Source: Chitinivibrionales bacterium
Lineage (GTDB): Bacteria; Fibrobacterota; Chitinivibrionia; Chitinivibrionales; FEN-1185
NCBI GenBank assembly: GCA_035516255.1
Contig: DATJAL010000051.1
Coordinates: 1 to 64,000 of the forward strand
Length of the DNA: 64,000 nt
Reading direction: 5' to 3'
Below the pieces are notes generated by a model. The model was not told the origin of the DNA, ran no database searches, and saw only the letters and a program-made list of their open reading frames with translations. This document shows positions 28,977 to 34,960 of this stretch, in pieces (position 1 is the stretch's first letter; each line of letters begins with the position of its first letter). Both the position numbers and the translations under genes were made by a program.

Positions 28977-30056
28977 ATGAGCGCCCGCCGTTTAAATTTT
29001 TATTTTGTTTTCCCGATATTCTTTGGCGGTGTCTCCCTCGCCGCACCTACGGCGGCCGGCGCCGGGGAAAATGATTCCGGTCTTATGGAGATCGCGCTCA
29101 GGACTTTCGGTGTCCTGCCTGCGGTGATGGCGTCGCCGAAAAACGATGTCACCCCGGAAAAAACATTTCTCGGAAGGATTCTTTTTTTTGAGACCCGCAT
29201 TTCAAAGGATGGGACCGCAAGCTGCTCGCGCTGCCATCTTTTCGGCCTGTACGGCACCGACGGCCTGCCGCTTGCAATCGGCAATTCCTGTAAAGTAAAC
29301 CCGAGGAACGCACCGACCGTTTTCAATGCCGCCGCCCAGATTTCGGCGCATTGGGTCGGCAACAGGACCGACGTTGAAGACCAGGCGAAGCAGGCGCTCG
29401 TGGGGCCGGTGTCGCTCGGCATGCCGTCGTACGACTCGGCCATGAAAGTCCTCAAGTCGATTCCCGGATATCCGCCGCTGTTCAGGGCCGCTTTTCCCAA
29501 AAGCGCCGATCCGGTAACGCCGGAAAATTTTGCGCTTGCGATCGGGGCGTTTGAAAGGACACTCGTCACGCCGGGTCCGCTTGACACATTTGAAAACGGA
29601 GACGCGTCGGCGCTTTCGGCGGCCCAGAAAACGGGGATGAACGTTTTTATCGTCGCGGGATGCTCAAACTGCCATAACGGTCCGTATCTGGGAGGACAAG
29701 AGTATAAAAAATTCGGAATCAAAGAGCCCTACTGGATCTCTACGAAAAGCGCGACAAAGGATCTCGGCCGCTTCATCGTAACGGGCGATGAAAGCGACAA
29801 ATATGTTTTTAAGGTGCCGGTGCTGCGAAACATTGCCATGACCGCGCCCTATTTCCATGACGGGTCGGTTGCCTCGCTCGACACAGCGGTGAGGATAATG
29901 GCCAGGGTCCAGCTCGACAAAGAGCTGTCGGAAATGCAAGTTTCCGACGTCATGGCATTTTTCAATGCGCTTACAGGGACGATCCCCGATTCCTGTTTAA
30001 GGGTTCCGGTGCTGCCGCCGTCTCAACCCCAGGTGACGAAAAGGCCGTCCAAATAA
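28977..30056 (+). CDS. di-haem cytochrome c peroxidase (CcpA/MauG family)
   Basis: A periplasmic 359-residue protein with a signal peptide and two haem c motifs, 'CSRCH' (about residue 83) and 'CSNCH' (about residue 226). Family landmarks include 'LGRILFFETRISKDGTASCSRCH', 'NAPTVFNA' and 'DLGRF.VTGDESDKYVFKVPVLRNIAMTAPYFHDGS' (written with a gap). These enzymes reduce hydrogen peroxide with electrons from cytochrome c or a cupredoxin. The cupredoxin at 500 is a possible partner (inference). The gene is 19 bases after the repeat protein. Confidence 0.92.
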   Translation: MSARRLNFYFVFPIFFGGVSLAAPTAAGAGENDSGLMEIALRTFGVLPAVMASPKNDVTPEKTFLGRILFFETRISKDGTASCSRCHLFGLYGTDGLPLAIGNSCKVNPRNAPTVFNAAAQISAHWVGNRTDVEDQAKQALVGPVSLGMPSYDSAMKVLKSIPGYPPLFRAAFPKSADPVTPENFALAIGAFERTLVTPGPLDTFENGDASALSAAQKTGMNVFIVAGCSNCHNGPYLGGQEYKKFGIKEPYWISTKSATKDLGRFIVTGDESDKYVFKVPVLRNIAMTAPYFHDGSVASLDTAVRIMARVQLDKELSEMQVSDVMAFFNALTGTIPDSCLRVPVLPPSQPQVTKRPSK

Positions 30057-30096
30057 TATGGCCACCTTAGTAATAAAAGGAACAGGCGGATGCCTT

Positions 30097-30648
30097 ATGC
30101 CTTCTGACGAAAAGAAAGAGCCAAAAGACAGTCCGCCGGCGGGTGAGAAGCATGCCCCGGTCGTCGAAGCGGTGATCTTTTCACAGGACGAGCCGCGAAG
30201 AAATGACTTTATCCAGTTTTTCCTGTTCCGCTGCCGGGAAATGAGGTGGTGCTACGAGAACATCGCCCGGCTCATCCGCGGCTCGGCTCAGAAAAAACTG
30301 CTCAAAAATATGGCGGAGCGCAAAAGGAACCACGAACGGAGCCTTATCGCGGCAATGGGAAACGCCGATGAGATAATGGACAAAACGGAACGACAGGTTT
30401 TGAGCCCATTTGTCCAGTATATGCTTGACATCAATCTGAGAAACCTCACGACGATCAACGAGGTATTTATTTTTATTTCAAACAAGGAAAAAAAGGAGCT
30501 TGAGTTATTTTCAAAGCTGGCAGACCTTGAGGAGAACGACGTCATAAAAGGGCTTTTCCTCGAGCAGTCGCAGGCATGCAGGGGACATCTTTCAGGGCTT
30601 GATGAGGATTTTTCGCATGTAACATTGGGAGGGGCCCTGGAATTCTGA
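30097..30648 (+). CDS. helical ferritin-like protein, unknown function
   Basis: A protein of about 183 residues. It has a hydrophilic N-terminus, then helices such as 'CREMRWCYENIARLIRGSAQKKLLKNMAERKRNHERSL'-like sequence, 'INEVFIFISNKEKKELELF' and 'IKGLFLEQSQACRGHLSGL'. The four-helix layout resembles rubrerythrin-like proteins, but metal ligands are partial. An ATG at 30058, two bases after the previous stop, is also in frame, but AGGCGG better supports 30097. Confidence 0.5.
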   Translation: MPSDEKKEPKDSPPAGEKHAPVVEAVIFSQDEPRRNDFIQFFLFRCREMRWCYENIARLIRGSAQKKLLKNMAERKRNHERSLIAAMGNADEIMDKTERQVLSPFVQYMLDINLRNLTTINEVFIFISNKEKKELELFSKLADLEENDVIKGLFLEQSQACRGHLSGLDEDFSHVTLGGALEF

Positions 30649-30697
30649 AAAGGACGGCCGTGAATACAGTTAACACCCATTATAGGAGAGAACGGAT

Positions 30698-31645
30698 ATG
30701 GAAAACCTGGTGATTGTCGGATCCGGTCCTGCGGGACTCACCGCCGCGCTGTACGCCGCGCGGGCGGGCATCGGGCCGCTGGTCATCGAAGGCGCGCAGA
30801 GCGGCGGCATCGCCGGCGGCCAGCTCATGAACGCGGGCGTGATCGAAAACTTTCCCGCGCTTCCGAAGGGCCTTGACGGACCGGAGCTCGTGCGGCTCAT
30901 GCGCGAGCAGGTGCGGGAATACCGTCTGCAAACCATCGCGAGCGACGTGGTCTCTGCGAATCTGATGGCGCGGCCGTTCACCCTGACCTGCGCCAACGGT
31001 AAAAACGTCGAGGCGAAGGCCGTCATCGTCGCGACCGGCGCAGCGGCCCGGCGGCTGCCCATGGAATCGGAAAAAAAATTCTGGGGCAGGGGCGTCTCAG
31101 CTTGCGCCGTATGCGACGGCGCCCTGCCGCTTTTCAGGGACAAGCCTTTGGCCGTCATAGGCGGGGGAGACAGCGCGGCCGAAAGTGCACTCCACCTCAC
31201 GCAGTTCGGAATAAAAATCGCCGTCATTCACCGGCGGGACAGATTAAAAGCCTCAAAAGTCATGCAGCAGCGCGTGCTCGAAAATAAAAAAATCGACGTC
31301 TTCTGGAACAAAACCGTCGTGGAGTTCCTCGGCGACGAAGTGCTCACCGGCTTGCGGCTCAAGGACGAGAAAACCGGAGAAACGTCCGACATCGCGGCGA
31401 GCGGCGCCTTTGAAGCGATCGGCGAAGTGCCGAACAACAAATTCCTCGGCTCTCAAATCAGGCTCGAGGATTCGGGCCATATCCGGACGCAGTCCAACTC
31501 CACCATGACCTCGGTTGACGGCGTTTTCGCGGCCGGCGACATTGCGGATAGGAAATACCGGCAGGCCATCACCGCGTCCGGCAGCGGGTGCATGGCCGCG
31601 CTCGATGCCGAGCGCTGGCTCATCGAAAAGGGTTTGCTTGATTGA
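30698..31645 (+). CDS. trxB: thioredoxin reductase
   Basis: NADPH-dependent flavoenzyme that reduces thioredoxin. The 315 residues show FAD-binding 'IVGSGPAGLTAALYAAR', redox-active 'CAVCDG' (usual form CATC/CAVC), NADPH-binding 'VIGGGDSAAESALHL' and 'FAAGDIADRKYRQAITASGSGCMAALDAERWL' (written here only as a landmark, split in the family into two motifs). Length and order are canonical. AGGAGAG lies upstream. A thioredoxin gene lies 0.5 kb away on the other strand. Confidence 0.95.
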   Translation: MENLVIVGSGPAGLTAALYAARAGIGPLVIEGAQSGGIAGGQLMNAGVIENFPALPKGLDGPELVRLMREQVREYRLQTIASDVVSANLMARPFTLTCANGKNVEAKAVIVATGAAARRLPMESEKKFWGRGVSACAVCDGALPLFRDKPLAVIGGGDSAAESALHLTQFGIKIAVIHRRDRLKASKVMQQRVLENKKIDVFWNKTVVEFLGDEVLTGLRLKDEKTGETSDIAASGAFEAIGEVPNNKFLGSQIRLEDSGHIRTQSNSTMTSVDGVFAAGDIADRKYRQAITASGSGCMAALDAERWLIEKGLLD

Positions 31646-31660
31646 TGGTAAGGCGGTAAG

Positions 31661-32131
31661 ATGGATGACAGGCTTGTTGCCATTTTTGACGCAACCATTC
31701 GTATGGAGCGGAAATGCGCGGAATTCTATCGCTTATTGGATAGATTATTTCCCGTAGACGGACCGTTCTGGCTTAAACTGATGAATGAAGAAGAGCATCA
31801 TGCGATCTTATTCCAGGCAGGCATGGAGCGCTTTTTTGATGAAGATCTTTTTCCCCTGGAGGCCATGGACCCTGATCTCACGAGCATCCAAAAATTAAAT
31901 TCAGAAGTTGAAAGCGCGATTCGACAATATACTCACCAGTTGTCCGATTATCAATTAGTCCGTCATCGCGCCTTGCAGCTTGAATCCTCGTCCGGGGAAT
32001 TTTACTTTGAGTTGGCCTTGGCTTCGAAAGAGGACTCACCGGCTTTGTGGCTCTTCCGGGATCTCTGCGATGATGAACACGATCACCGACAACGCATTCT
32101 TGATTTCTTCAACGAGACAAGGCACTCCTAG
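31661..32131 (+). CDS. diiron ferritin-like (rubrerythrin-type) protein
   Basis: A 156-residue four-helix protein with two clear E...ExxH pairs: 'MERKCAEFY' with 'NEEEHHAIL', and 'ESSSGEFYFE' with 'CDDEHDHRQ'. This is the cleanest diiron site among the ferritin-like proteins in the window. It may act in peroxide scavenging or as an iron store. It follows trxB by 15 bases and is probably cotranscribed. Confidence 0.75.
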   Translation: MDDRLVAIFDATIRMERKCAEFYRLLDRLFPVDGPFWLKLMNEEEHHAILFQAGMERFFDEDLFPLEAMDPDLTSIQKLNSEVESAIRQYTHQLSDYQLVRHRALQLESSSGEFYFELALASKEDSPALWLFRDLCDDEHDHRQRILDFFNETRHS

Positions 32132-32199
32132 TTACCATTTCGATTAATTGATTTATACAAGGCATGCGGCGGCAGTGAAGGCCCCAGCGGTATGTTTTC

Positions 32200-32601
32200 C
32201 TAGGAGCCGAACAGGGGTTGGCTTGCGGCTTGAGAAGGCTGCTCCGGCCAGTGTTCATCGATCTGGCGTTTGACCTCTTCCAACGGTTGCGCCCCGATGA
32301 TCCGTAAAACGGGCTTTCCTTTCCAAAACATCATGACCGTCGGGATGCTACCGATCTGATACCGGGTGGCGATGAGCGGCTTGTCGTCAACGTTCACTTT
32401 TATCGCCAGAAGCCGGCCCGAATATTCCTTCGCGATTTGCTCGATGGTCGGGCTCATGATCCGGCACGGCGCGCACCACACCGCCCAGAAATCAACCAGC
32501 ACGGGTTTTTCATAGGTGAAAATCAATTCTTCAAAAGAGCTCGGCAGGTCGGGCACGCAAAATCCTTTTTTGATTGTTTCCCGATAAACTTCAAAATTCA
32601 T
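32200..32601 (-). CDS. thioredoxin
   Basis: A 133-residue thioredoxin with active site 'WCAPC' in 'VLVDFWAVWCAPCRIMSP', and 'VNVDDKPLIATRYQIGSIPTV' containing the cis-Pro loop (split: residues about 80-100). A 20-residue N-terminal extension precedes the core. It probably pairs with TrxB at 30698. It faces the hydrogenase operon, and its own promoter is not obvious. Confidence 0.92.
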   Translation of the reverse strand: MNFEVYRETIKKGFCVPDLPSSFEELIFTYEKPVLVDFWAVWCAPCRIMSPTIEQIAKEYSGRLLAIKVNVDDKPLIATRYQIGSIPTVMMFWKGKPVLRIIGAQPLEEVKRQIDEHWPEQPSQAASQPLFGS

Positions 32602-32933: not shown

Positions 32934-33665
32934 ATGAAAAAGCAACGTGTTGCGGTGTTCGATTTCGCCTGCTGCGAGGGCTGCCAGCTCCAATTGCTGA
33001 ACATGGACGAAAAGCTGCTTGATCTCCTCGCAGTTGTTGACATTGTGGAATGGCGGGAGGGAATGTCCGAGCACGGTGCAGCGTATGATATCGCACTCAT
33101 CGAGGGGTCGATCACCAGGCCGGAAGACGAGGAGCGCATCAGGCGCATCCGGGAGCAGGCCCCGGTGCTCATCGAGCTCGGCGCCTGCGCCTCCATCGGC
33201 GGCGTCAACAAGATCAAGAATGCGTCGGACCTGGATGAGGTGAAATCGTGCGTTTATGGAAGCAGCGCGGGCCTGCCGCAGTTCGCAACTTACCAAACGA
33301 AGGCGATACACGAAGTGGTGCAGGTGGAATACACGATCCATGGATGTCCCATTGACTTGGTGGAATTCACCAAGGTCATGACCAGCATCGTCATCGGAAC
33401 GAAGCCCGACATCCCCTCCTATCCCGTGTGCGTGGAATGCAAGATGCGGGGAAATCCCTGCCGCTACGATTACAACGAACTTTGCCTCGGCGTGATCACC
33501 CGCGCGGGGTGCAACGCGCCGTGCCCCTCGGCCGGTTTCTGGTGCTTCGGCTGCCGCGGCCTGGTCGACGATCCCAACGTGAACGCGGCGCGCGGAATGA
33601 TGAAAGAATACAACATCACCCTTGAAAGCCTTGTTGACAAAATCGCATTGTTCAACACGCGCTGA
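32934..33665 (+). CDS. [NiFe] hydrogenase small subunit (group 3-like)
   Basis: The 243-residue iron-sulfur subunit transfers electrons from the NiFe site. The proximal-cluster motif is 'FDFACCEGCQLQLL', with 'ELGACASIGG' and 'HGCPID'. A Cys-rich C-terminal half ('CVECKMRGNPC', 'CNAPCPSAGFWCFGC') supplies the other clusters. There is no Tat signal, so it is cytoplasmic. This layout fits the F420-nonreducing/sulfhydrogenase-delta type of group 3. Its stop overlaps the large-subunit ATG by one base (TGATG). Confidence 0.9.
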   Translation: MKKQRVAVFDFACCEGCQLQLLNMDEKLLDLLAVVDIVEWREGMSEHGAAYDIALIEGSITRPEDEERIRRIREQAPVLIELGACASIGGVNKIKNASDLDEVKSCVYGSSAGLPQFATYQTKAIHEVVQVEYTIHGCPIDLVEFTKVMTSIVIGTKPDIPSYPVCVECKMRGNPCRYDYNELCLGVITRAGCNAPCPSAGFWCFGCRGLVDDPNVNAARGMMKEYNITLESLVDKIALFNTR

Positions 33666-34960
33666 TGCCTCCGTCACTCATGAAAAAAAGAACCGAAATA
33701 ACCGTCAAGCATGTCACCCGTGTCGAAGGGCACGGCGGCATTCACATCGTCGTCGCGGACGGGAGCGTGGAAAAGGTCGAATGGCAGGTGCCGGAGGCGC
33801 CGCGGTTTTTCGAGGCCATGGTGCGCGGCCGCAACTTTCAGGACATCCAGACCGTGGTAAGCCGGATTTGCGGCATTTGCTCGGTCACGCATTCCTTTGC
33901 CGCACTCAAGGCGATCGAGGCGGCATTCGGCGTTACCATTTCCCGTCAGACCGAGCTTTTGCGCATACTCACCCTTTACGGCGAGCACCTCGAAAGCCAT
34001 GCGTTGCATATCGGCTTCCTCGCGGCGCCCGATTTCTTTGGCGCGGCCTCCATCTTCCCGCTTGCCCAATCTCAACCCGCCTTTGTAAAGTCTGTGATGG
34101 GGATTCACCGGCTCGGCAATGATATGATGGAGCGCCTCGGCGGCCGAATGACCCATCCGGTGTCGTTCCGAGTGGGAGGCATGTGCATGCTTCCCTCGGT
34201 GGAAACCATGCGTGCACTCATGAAAAAAATTGAGGATCAGGTCAAACCGCTCGAGTCACTCGTCGAGGAGGCGCGCGGTTTTCTGGACAGAATTCCCGAT
34301 TTTCAACGCGAAACGGAATACGTCGCCGTCAGGCGCCCCGGCCTTTACAGCATATACGATGGAGAGGTCGCAAGCAGTGATGCAGCGGATGGAATTCTAC
34401 CGGCCGGTTTTGAGGCCGCAGTCCGCGAGTATATTCCCCCTATGTCAACAGCTAAGTGGGCGCGCTTGCACCGGGAATCCTATGCCACGGGTGCCCTTGC
34501 CCGTTTCAACCTCAACGGCGCCTTGCTGCTGCCCCGGGCGAAAAAGGCCGCTTCGGCGCTCGGGCTTGACCGGCGGCGCCACAATCCGTTCATGAACACC
34601 ATTGCGCAAATCGTCGAGTGCGTGCACATCGTGGAGCACGCGGCAGTGCTGCTCGACGAGATGCTGGAACGGGGCATGGAGCGGGAACATTACCCGGTTG
34701 TAAGTCCGCAGGCCGCCGTGGGGGCGGCATGCGTGGAGGCGCCGCGGGGGACCCTGTTCCACAAATATGCATTCGATGAACGAGGCAACTGTGTGGCCGC
34801 CAACCTGATCATACCCACCAACCAGAACCACGCAAATATCCAGAAGGATCTTGAGGCGCTGGTGGCGGAGCACGCAAACGATCCGGAAGAGCGCGTCAAA
34901 CAATGGGCCGAGATGCTGGTGCGCGCGTACGATCCGTGCATTTCCTGCTCGACGCATTGA
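33665..34960 (+). CDS. [NiFe] hydrogenase large subunit without C-terminal extension
   Basis: The 431-residue catalytic subunit activates H2. Ni-Fe ligands lie in 'RICGICSVTH' (about residue 60) and 'DPCISCSTH' at the very end; 'VTRVEGHGG' is the L1 region. The stop codon directly follows the final His. Most hydrogenases carry 15-20 further residues that an endopeptidase removes during maturation; here none exist. With only ferredoxin and the small subunit nearby, this is a minimal soluble enzyme. No hyp maturation genes are in the window. Confidence 0.93.
   Translation: MPPSLMKKRTEITVKHVTRVEGHGGIHIVVADGSVEKVEWQVPEAPRFFEAMVRGRNFQDIQTVVSRICGICSVTHSFAALKAIEAAFGVTISRQTELLRILTLYGEHLESHALHIGFLAAPDFFGAASIFPLAQSQPAFVKSVMGIHRLGNDMMERLGGRMTHPVSFRVGGMCMLPSVETMRALMKKIEDQVKPLESLVEEARGFLDRIPDFQRETEYVAVRRPGLYSIYDGEVASSDAADGILPAGFEAAVREYIPPMSTAKWARLHRESYATGALARFNLNGALLLPRAKKAASALGLDRRRHNPFMNTIAQIVECVHIVEHAAVLLDEMLERGMEREHYPVVSPQAAVGAACVEAPRGTLFHKYAFDERGNCVAANLIIPTNQNHANIQKDLEALVAEHANDPEERVKQWAEMLVRAYDPCISCSTH

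Follow-up and report, generated by a model that had tools for sequence, protein, structure and literature searches.

In the group 3b hydrogenase SHI of P. furiosus, the large subunit carries a VVRL tail that is cut by FrxA, and removal of this tail is required for activity (PMC2865534). A laboratory alpha-delta dimer of SHI is stable and displays methyl viologen activity similar to that of the tetramer; it does not use NADPH, and POR, but not ferredoxin, can serve as its electron donor (PMC3200332). Pairing of the T. kodakarensis HyhL tail with a strand close to the N-terminus leaves this terminus free to recruit HypA to the open site (PMC7294309; PMC12134894). Engineered removal of the tail resulted in nickel-free R. 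eutropha SH and in cofactor-free E. coli Hyd-2, and assembly with the small subunit has been proposed as the checkpoint for the regulatory hydrogenase and for processed MBH (PMC7294309). Natural tail-less [NiFe] hydrogenases have been published for groups 2b, 2d, 4c, 4e and 4g (PMC7294309, PMC12134894), a longer list than the mainly sensor-type and few CO-linked exceptions named in an earlier note on the DNA analysed here. Group 3 is absent from such lists in the open-licence literature, although an earlier report elsewhere is possible.

The stretch analysed here (64,000 nucleotides; hereafter the window) belongs to a draft genome of 4.28 Mb that is 96.6% complete. It contains a three-gene unit encoding a ferredoxin, a small subunit and a large subunit of a [NiFe] hydrogenase (Table 1), in agreement with the earlier note, which described a group-3-like enzyme with only a ferredoxin and a small subunit; no hydB or hydG gene lies within reach of this unit. 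The ferredoxin gene is in tandem with the small-subunit gene and divergent from a thioredoxin gene (32200-32601, minus strand). The small-subunit stop and the large-subunit start overlap by one base (TGATG, 33663-33667), and an alternative in-frame ATG start for the large subunit lies at 33683. The genes adjoining the unit at 28977-32601, which encode a di-haem cytochrome c peroxidase, a thioredoxin reductase, a rubrerythrin-like protein and the thioredoxin, suggest a redox-stress neighbourhood, and the other flank contains fumarase and further citric-acid-cycle genes. Our survey found no second genome with this ferredoxin-small subunit-large subunit arrangement.

Table 1. Features of the hydrogenase unit in the window.
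Feature	Position	Strand	Basis or remark
Single-cluster [4Fe-4S] ferredoxin, 63 aa	32713..32904	+	Pfam Fer4_13, E=9e-16; heads the three-gene unit
Small (delta) subunit, HydD-like	32934..33665	+	NCBIfam sulfhyd_HydD, E=2e-52, under the model cut-off
Large (alpha) subunit, 431 aa, without C-terminal extension	33665..34960	+	ORF, Pfam/NCBIfam, PDB, AlphaFold
N-terminal ligand motif RICGIC (C69, C72)	33863..33880	+	Invariant in the large-subunit alignment
C-terminal ligand motif DPCISCSTH (C425, C428, H431), the final nine residues	34931..34957	+	
TGA stop immediately 3' of H431	34958..34960	+	

The large subunit ends in ...MLVRAYDPCISCSTH, with the TGA directly after DPCISCSTH, confirming that the protein stops at its last ligand motif. 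All four NiFe ligand cysteines and the terminal His are kept, as are the cysteines at 12 of the 12 conserved columns of the small subunit. A split C-terminus of the kind found in VhuU is unneeded, because the complete ligand motif is encoded within the large-subunit gene. Downstream of the stop, no tail-like peptide was found in any frame (best score -1.7, whereas real tails score >16; p=0.18 against shuffles and 0.20 against random genomic stretches). Given that the draft genome is in 61 contigs, the missing tail might reflect faulty assembly or a frameshift of very recent origin; this explanation is extremely improbable and is already contradicted by the identical ends in independent genomes, by the absence of a tail remnant in all frames and by the concomitant absence of a linked HycI gene, hydB and hydG. 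The outcome that the earlier note had set against its own reading, in which all relatives carry the extension and this copy shows a recent nonsense change or frameshift, likewise does not apply, as other group 3b enzymes are tail-less and this copy shows no trace of a lost tail.

Both subunits fall within group 3b according to trees, NCBIfam models and PDB matches; in the trees, each is placed among bacterial subunits encoded in hydBGDA operons. The large subunit matches PF00374, and its best NCBIfam models are the sulfhydrogenase alpha models ShyA (E=6e-76) and HydA (E=1e-71), both under the curated cut-offs; T. kodakarensis HyhL and P. furiosus SHI are its top PDB sequence matches. The AlphaFold model of this subunit (pLDDT 85.8, pTM 0.89) gave the alpha subunit of P. 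furiosus soluble hydrogenase I as the best PDB fold matches, the first being the alpha-delta heterodimer 9e15. The small subunit is 62% identical to a HydD from Phycisphaerae. The unit shares subunit fold, ligand motifs and phylogeny with the HydBGDA enzymes (P. furiosus SHI and SHII, T. kodakarensis HyhBGSL) but lacks the tail, HydB and HydG, and hence the FAD/NAD(P) diaphorase of the four-subunit complex. Because hydB and hydG are missing, the window hydrogenase is a group 3b-derived enzyme and not a standard member of the group. The short tail cut by a HycI/HybD/FrxA-type protease is also absent (tail length 0, no linked HycI gene), but this feature does not define group 3b, since 71 of 189 surveyed loci lack both tail and linked HycI. 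Like the enzymes of groups 2b, 2d, 4c, 4e and 4g, which are Hyp-dependent where tested, the large subunit is translated at its mature length, although it belongs to a different clade. The engineered SHI dimer (PMC3200332; PDB 9e15) resembles the window unit in having two subunits without the diaphorase; it differs in being laboratory-made, in coming from a parent enzyme with the VVRL tail and in not using ferredoxin.

The window copy is not singular in its own genome. Contig C61 of the same assembly carries a complete group 3b operon (hydB, hydG, hydD, hydA and hypA), and there, too, the large subunit terminates at CSTH. Since this operon encodes HydB, HydG, HydD and HydA, the window alpha-delta core could in principle borrow its HydB and HydG to form an NAD(P)-linked isoenzyme; however, the two large subunits are only 48% identical and belong to different clades, and a ferredoxin gene already belongs to the window unit, so that we regard such borrowing as quite improbable. 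The genome contains HypD and HypF genes, and its sole HycI gene is next to that of a group 1 enzyme that is exported by the Tat pathway and has a 15-aa tail on its large subunit. In one cell, therefore, a group 1 hydrogenase retains tail and protease, and the 3b enzyme has neither. A single HycI gene is present in almost all of the other tail-less genomes, and at the seven HycI loci of these genomes with a readable neighbour, the neighbouring large subunit was of the DPCLACA type with a tail of 15-16 residues. No HycI-family match (E<=0.001) was found in the genomes G030, G041, G810 and G386, all of which encode HypD together with a 3b large subunit that lacks the tail; completeness is 98% for G030 and 100% for G041, with no figure given for the other two. 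A further genome, G177, lacks both HypD and HycI and is probably incomplete.

Tail length and protease linkage were surveyed across group 3b using a profile built from 18 large subunits and a scan of named genomes, which yielded 189 readable loci, mostly from metagenome bins, in the phyla reachable from the fetched loci. The tail was absent in 71 of these, the window included, and measured 4-26 aa in the remaining 118; the counts are slightly inflated because a few loci were fetched twice, and Chlorobia dominate the tail-less set. The other tail-less taxa were several bacteria on the Desulfobulbaceae side and four genomes of the window's phylum (the window genome with its C61 copy, G001, G030 and G041). 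The common tail form is 7-8 residues long (for example, YLNVEFV or MLDVQFVK). Where 600 bp or more of downstream DNA was available, HycI was linked to 0 of 68 tail-less and to 72 of 112 tailed large subunits, counts that are inflated by the relatedness of the loci; the tree described below was therefore built without the tail columns. HydG was found at 164 of the related loci searched. Loss of hydG is not a general trait of tail-less enzymes, as 63 of the 70 other tail-less loci have hydG in the available DNA and, at some of the rest, it is located farther away. HypA encoded directly downstream could not serve as a general substitute for HycI either, this arrangement being confined to the phylum of the window, in which hypA lies directly 3' of tail-less large-subunit genes (L053:4046-4378, L055:10975-11307 and L056:18722-19057); tailed operons of other phyla carry hycI at this place. 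Two further features emerged from the survey: in one branch of 3b large subunits (L135, L137, L138 and L141), the tails are exceptionally long (21-26 aa) and HycI is missing from the vicinity, and in some Chlorobia a small RelE/ParE-like gene of opposite orientation separates hydG from the small-subunit gene (L269:6617-6916, L271:8580-8879).

For the large subunits (88 rows), the best tree requires at least four changes of tail state, and the same holds over the 5-95% range of bootstrap trees. The AU test rejected a single origin of tail loss, represented by one tail-less clade (p=1.4e-5), as well as a grouping of the window gene with the copies from its phylum that lack the tail (p=6e-4). The four changes correspond to three losses and one regain, or to five losses if regain of a canonical tail (MLKVNFK in L057) is considered unlikely. 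The window large subunit groups (support 100/99) with ten tailed sequences of Verrucomicrobiota/Kiritimatiellota type, two of which (L010 and L011) sit in hydBGDA-hycI operons, and a quick-method tree places the small subunit among tailed enzymes of Verrucomicrobiota/Planctomycetota (99% SH-aLRT). The nearest relatives of the window large subunit carry a tail of 7-8 aa, but other 3b lineages have none. Compared with its clade relatives, the window unit has lost the tail, hydB, hydG and hycI, and its subunit genes are preceded by a ferredoxin gene. Because the same-genus genome G001 has no copy of the unit, horizontal transfer into the window lineage is likely.

The branch of the window large subunit is long (1.14, compared with a median of 0.27), which fits a changed or relaxed function. 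Together with the loss of hydB, hydG and hycI and the missing copy in G001, this might mean that the unit is a decaying, horizontally acquired fragment from which no active enzyme is made. However, the three ORFs are intact and tightly spaced, all of the NiFe ligands and small-subunit cysteines are kept, departures at near-invariant positions are few (4 in the small subunit and 11 in the large subunit, the latter including 5 extra N-terminal residues and 1 insertion), and the GC3 of the unit is not very different from that of the neighbouring genes. We therefore consider decay a rather improbable reading.

The earlier note had offered either maturation without the endopeptidase step or a sensing role. 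In the latter case, the enzyme, tail-less like HoxBC/HupUV and without a diaphorase, would signal H2 to a regulator, perhaps via the ferredoxin. The absent tail, as in group 2b, is in line with this possibility, as is the finding that 3b-related dimers lacking a diaphorase, from the phylum searched via Desulfobulbaceae, adjoin genes for GAF-GGDEF proteins or for a response regulator and kinase. However, no kinase, GGDEF, PAS or GAF gene, and no regulator gene, was found near the window unit, where the partner gene encodes a ferredoxin, and the 3b phylogeny and lack of an adjacent histidine kinase place the enzyme outside group 2b. Moreover, the complete 3b operon of the same genome is also tail-less, so a missing tail is no mark of sensors, and the sensor-like dimers keep tails of 7-8 aa, so that sensing and the loss of the tail have to be considered separately. 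A sensing role is thus unlikely and finds no support at this locus, and only the protease-free half of the earlier interpretation is well supported by the comparison, in the joint, repeated loss of tail and linked protease and in the four HypD-encoding genomes without HycI.

The sensor-like loci (L273-L280, e.g. L276:7394-10927, L278:8465-11830 and L279:4549-9539) encode 3b-related small and large subunits without hydB or hydG. Directly downstream, most of them have a gene for a GAF-GGDEF diguanylate cyclase, or genes for a response regulator, a (histidine) kinase and a GAF-GGDEF protein. At L281:5864-12063 and L282:5783-8859, related large subunits precede a response regulator and a membrane histidine kinase resembling PilS. 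The L273-L280 dimers are candidate H2 sensors outside group 2. HydDB labels group 2c 'diguanylate cyclase-linked (putative)' (PMC5037454), and we found no 3b equivalent of this group in the open-licence literature.

Judging from sequence comparison, the window unit is probably a working cytoplasmic, 3b-derived alpha-delta hydrogenase that has lost the NAD(P)-linked HydB/HydG part, is matured by the Hyp proteins without proteolysis and works with a dedicated ferredoxin. Under this proposal, the large subunit would be synthesized at its final length, and the apo-protein would never have had a C-terminal peptide. HypCDEF would insert Fe(CN)2CO and HypA/HypB would insert nickel into the tail-less apo-protein, after which C428 and the terminal His would close the NiFe site without proteolysis, and no other processing would take place. 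The HyhL-type tail switch would have to be dispensable in tail-less 3b enzymes; their likely checkpoint, probably also that of the window enzyme, is the joining of the two subunits, in line with the proposal for the regulatory hydrogenase and processed MBH. Electrons would pass from the NiFe site through three Fe-S clusters to the ferredoxin, with which the dimer probably exchanges electrons. In favour of an active enzyme, all Ni-Fe and Fe-S ligands have been retained despite the long branch, and the laboratory SHI dimer shows that an alpha-delta core can be active. Against it, that dimer did not use P. furiosus ferredoxin, which leaves the ferredoxin link of the window enzyme less than assured, and the results for SHI, R. 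eutropha SH and E. coli Hyd-2 imply that tail-less 3b proteins must differ somehow from these enzymes.

The role of the C-terminal peptide of [NiFe] hydrogenases is unsettled, its engineered removal giving, depending on the enzyme, anything from cofactor-free protein to active enzyme (PMC7294309, PMC12134894). Group 3b, with closely related natural enzymes with and without the tail, provides a natural test of this last assembly step. We tentatively propose, at somewhat less than even confidence, that group 3b can dispense with proteolytic maturation and has discarded it repeatedly, with joint loss of tail and protease at least three times and probably five, and that the window unit represents a natural, ferredoxin-served alpha-delta minimal hydrogenase. 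A tail-less enzyme needing fewer maturation genes, as well as a diaphorase-free dimer, would be easier to produce. If the proposal is true, group 3b holds natural pairs of enzymes that differ in their maturation checkpoint, within a subgroup in which the protease is essential in P. furiosus.
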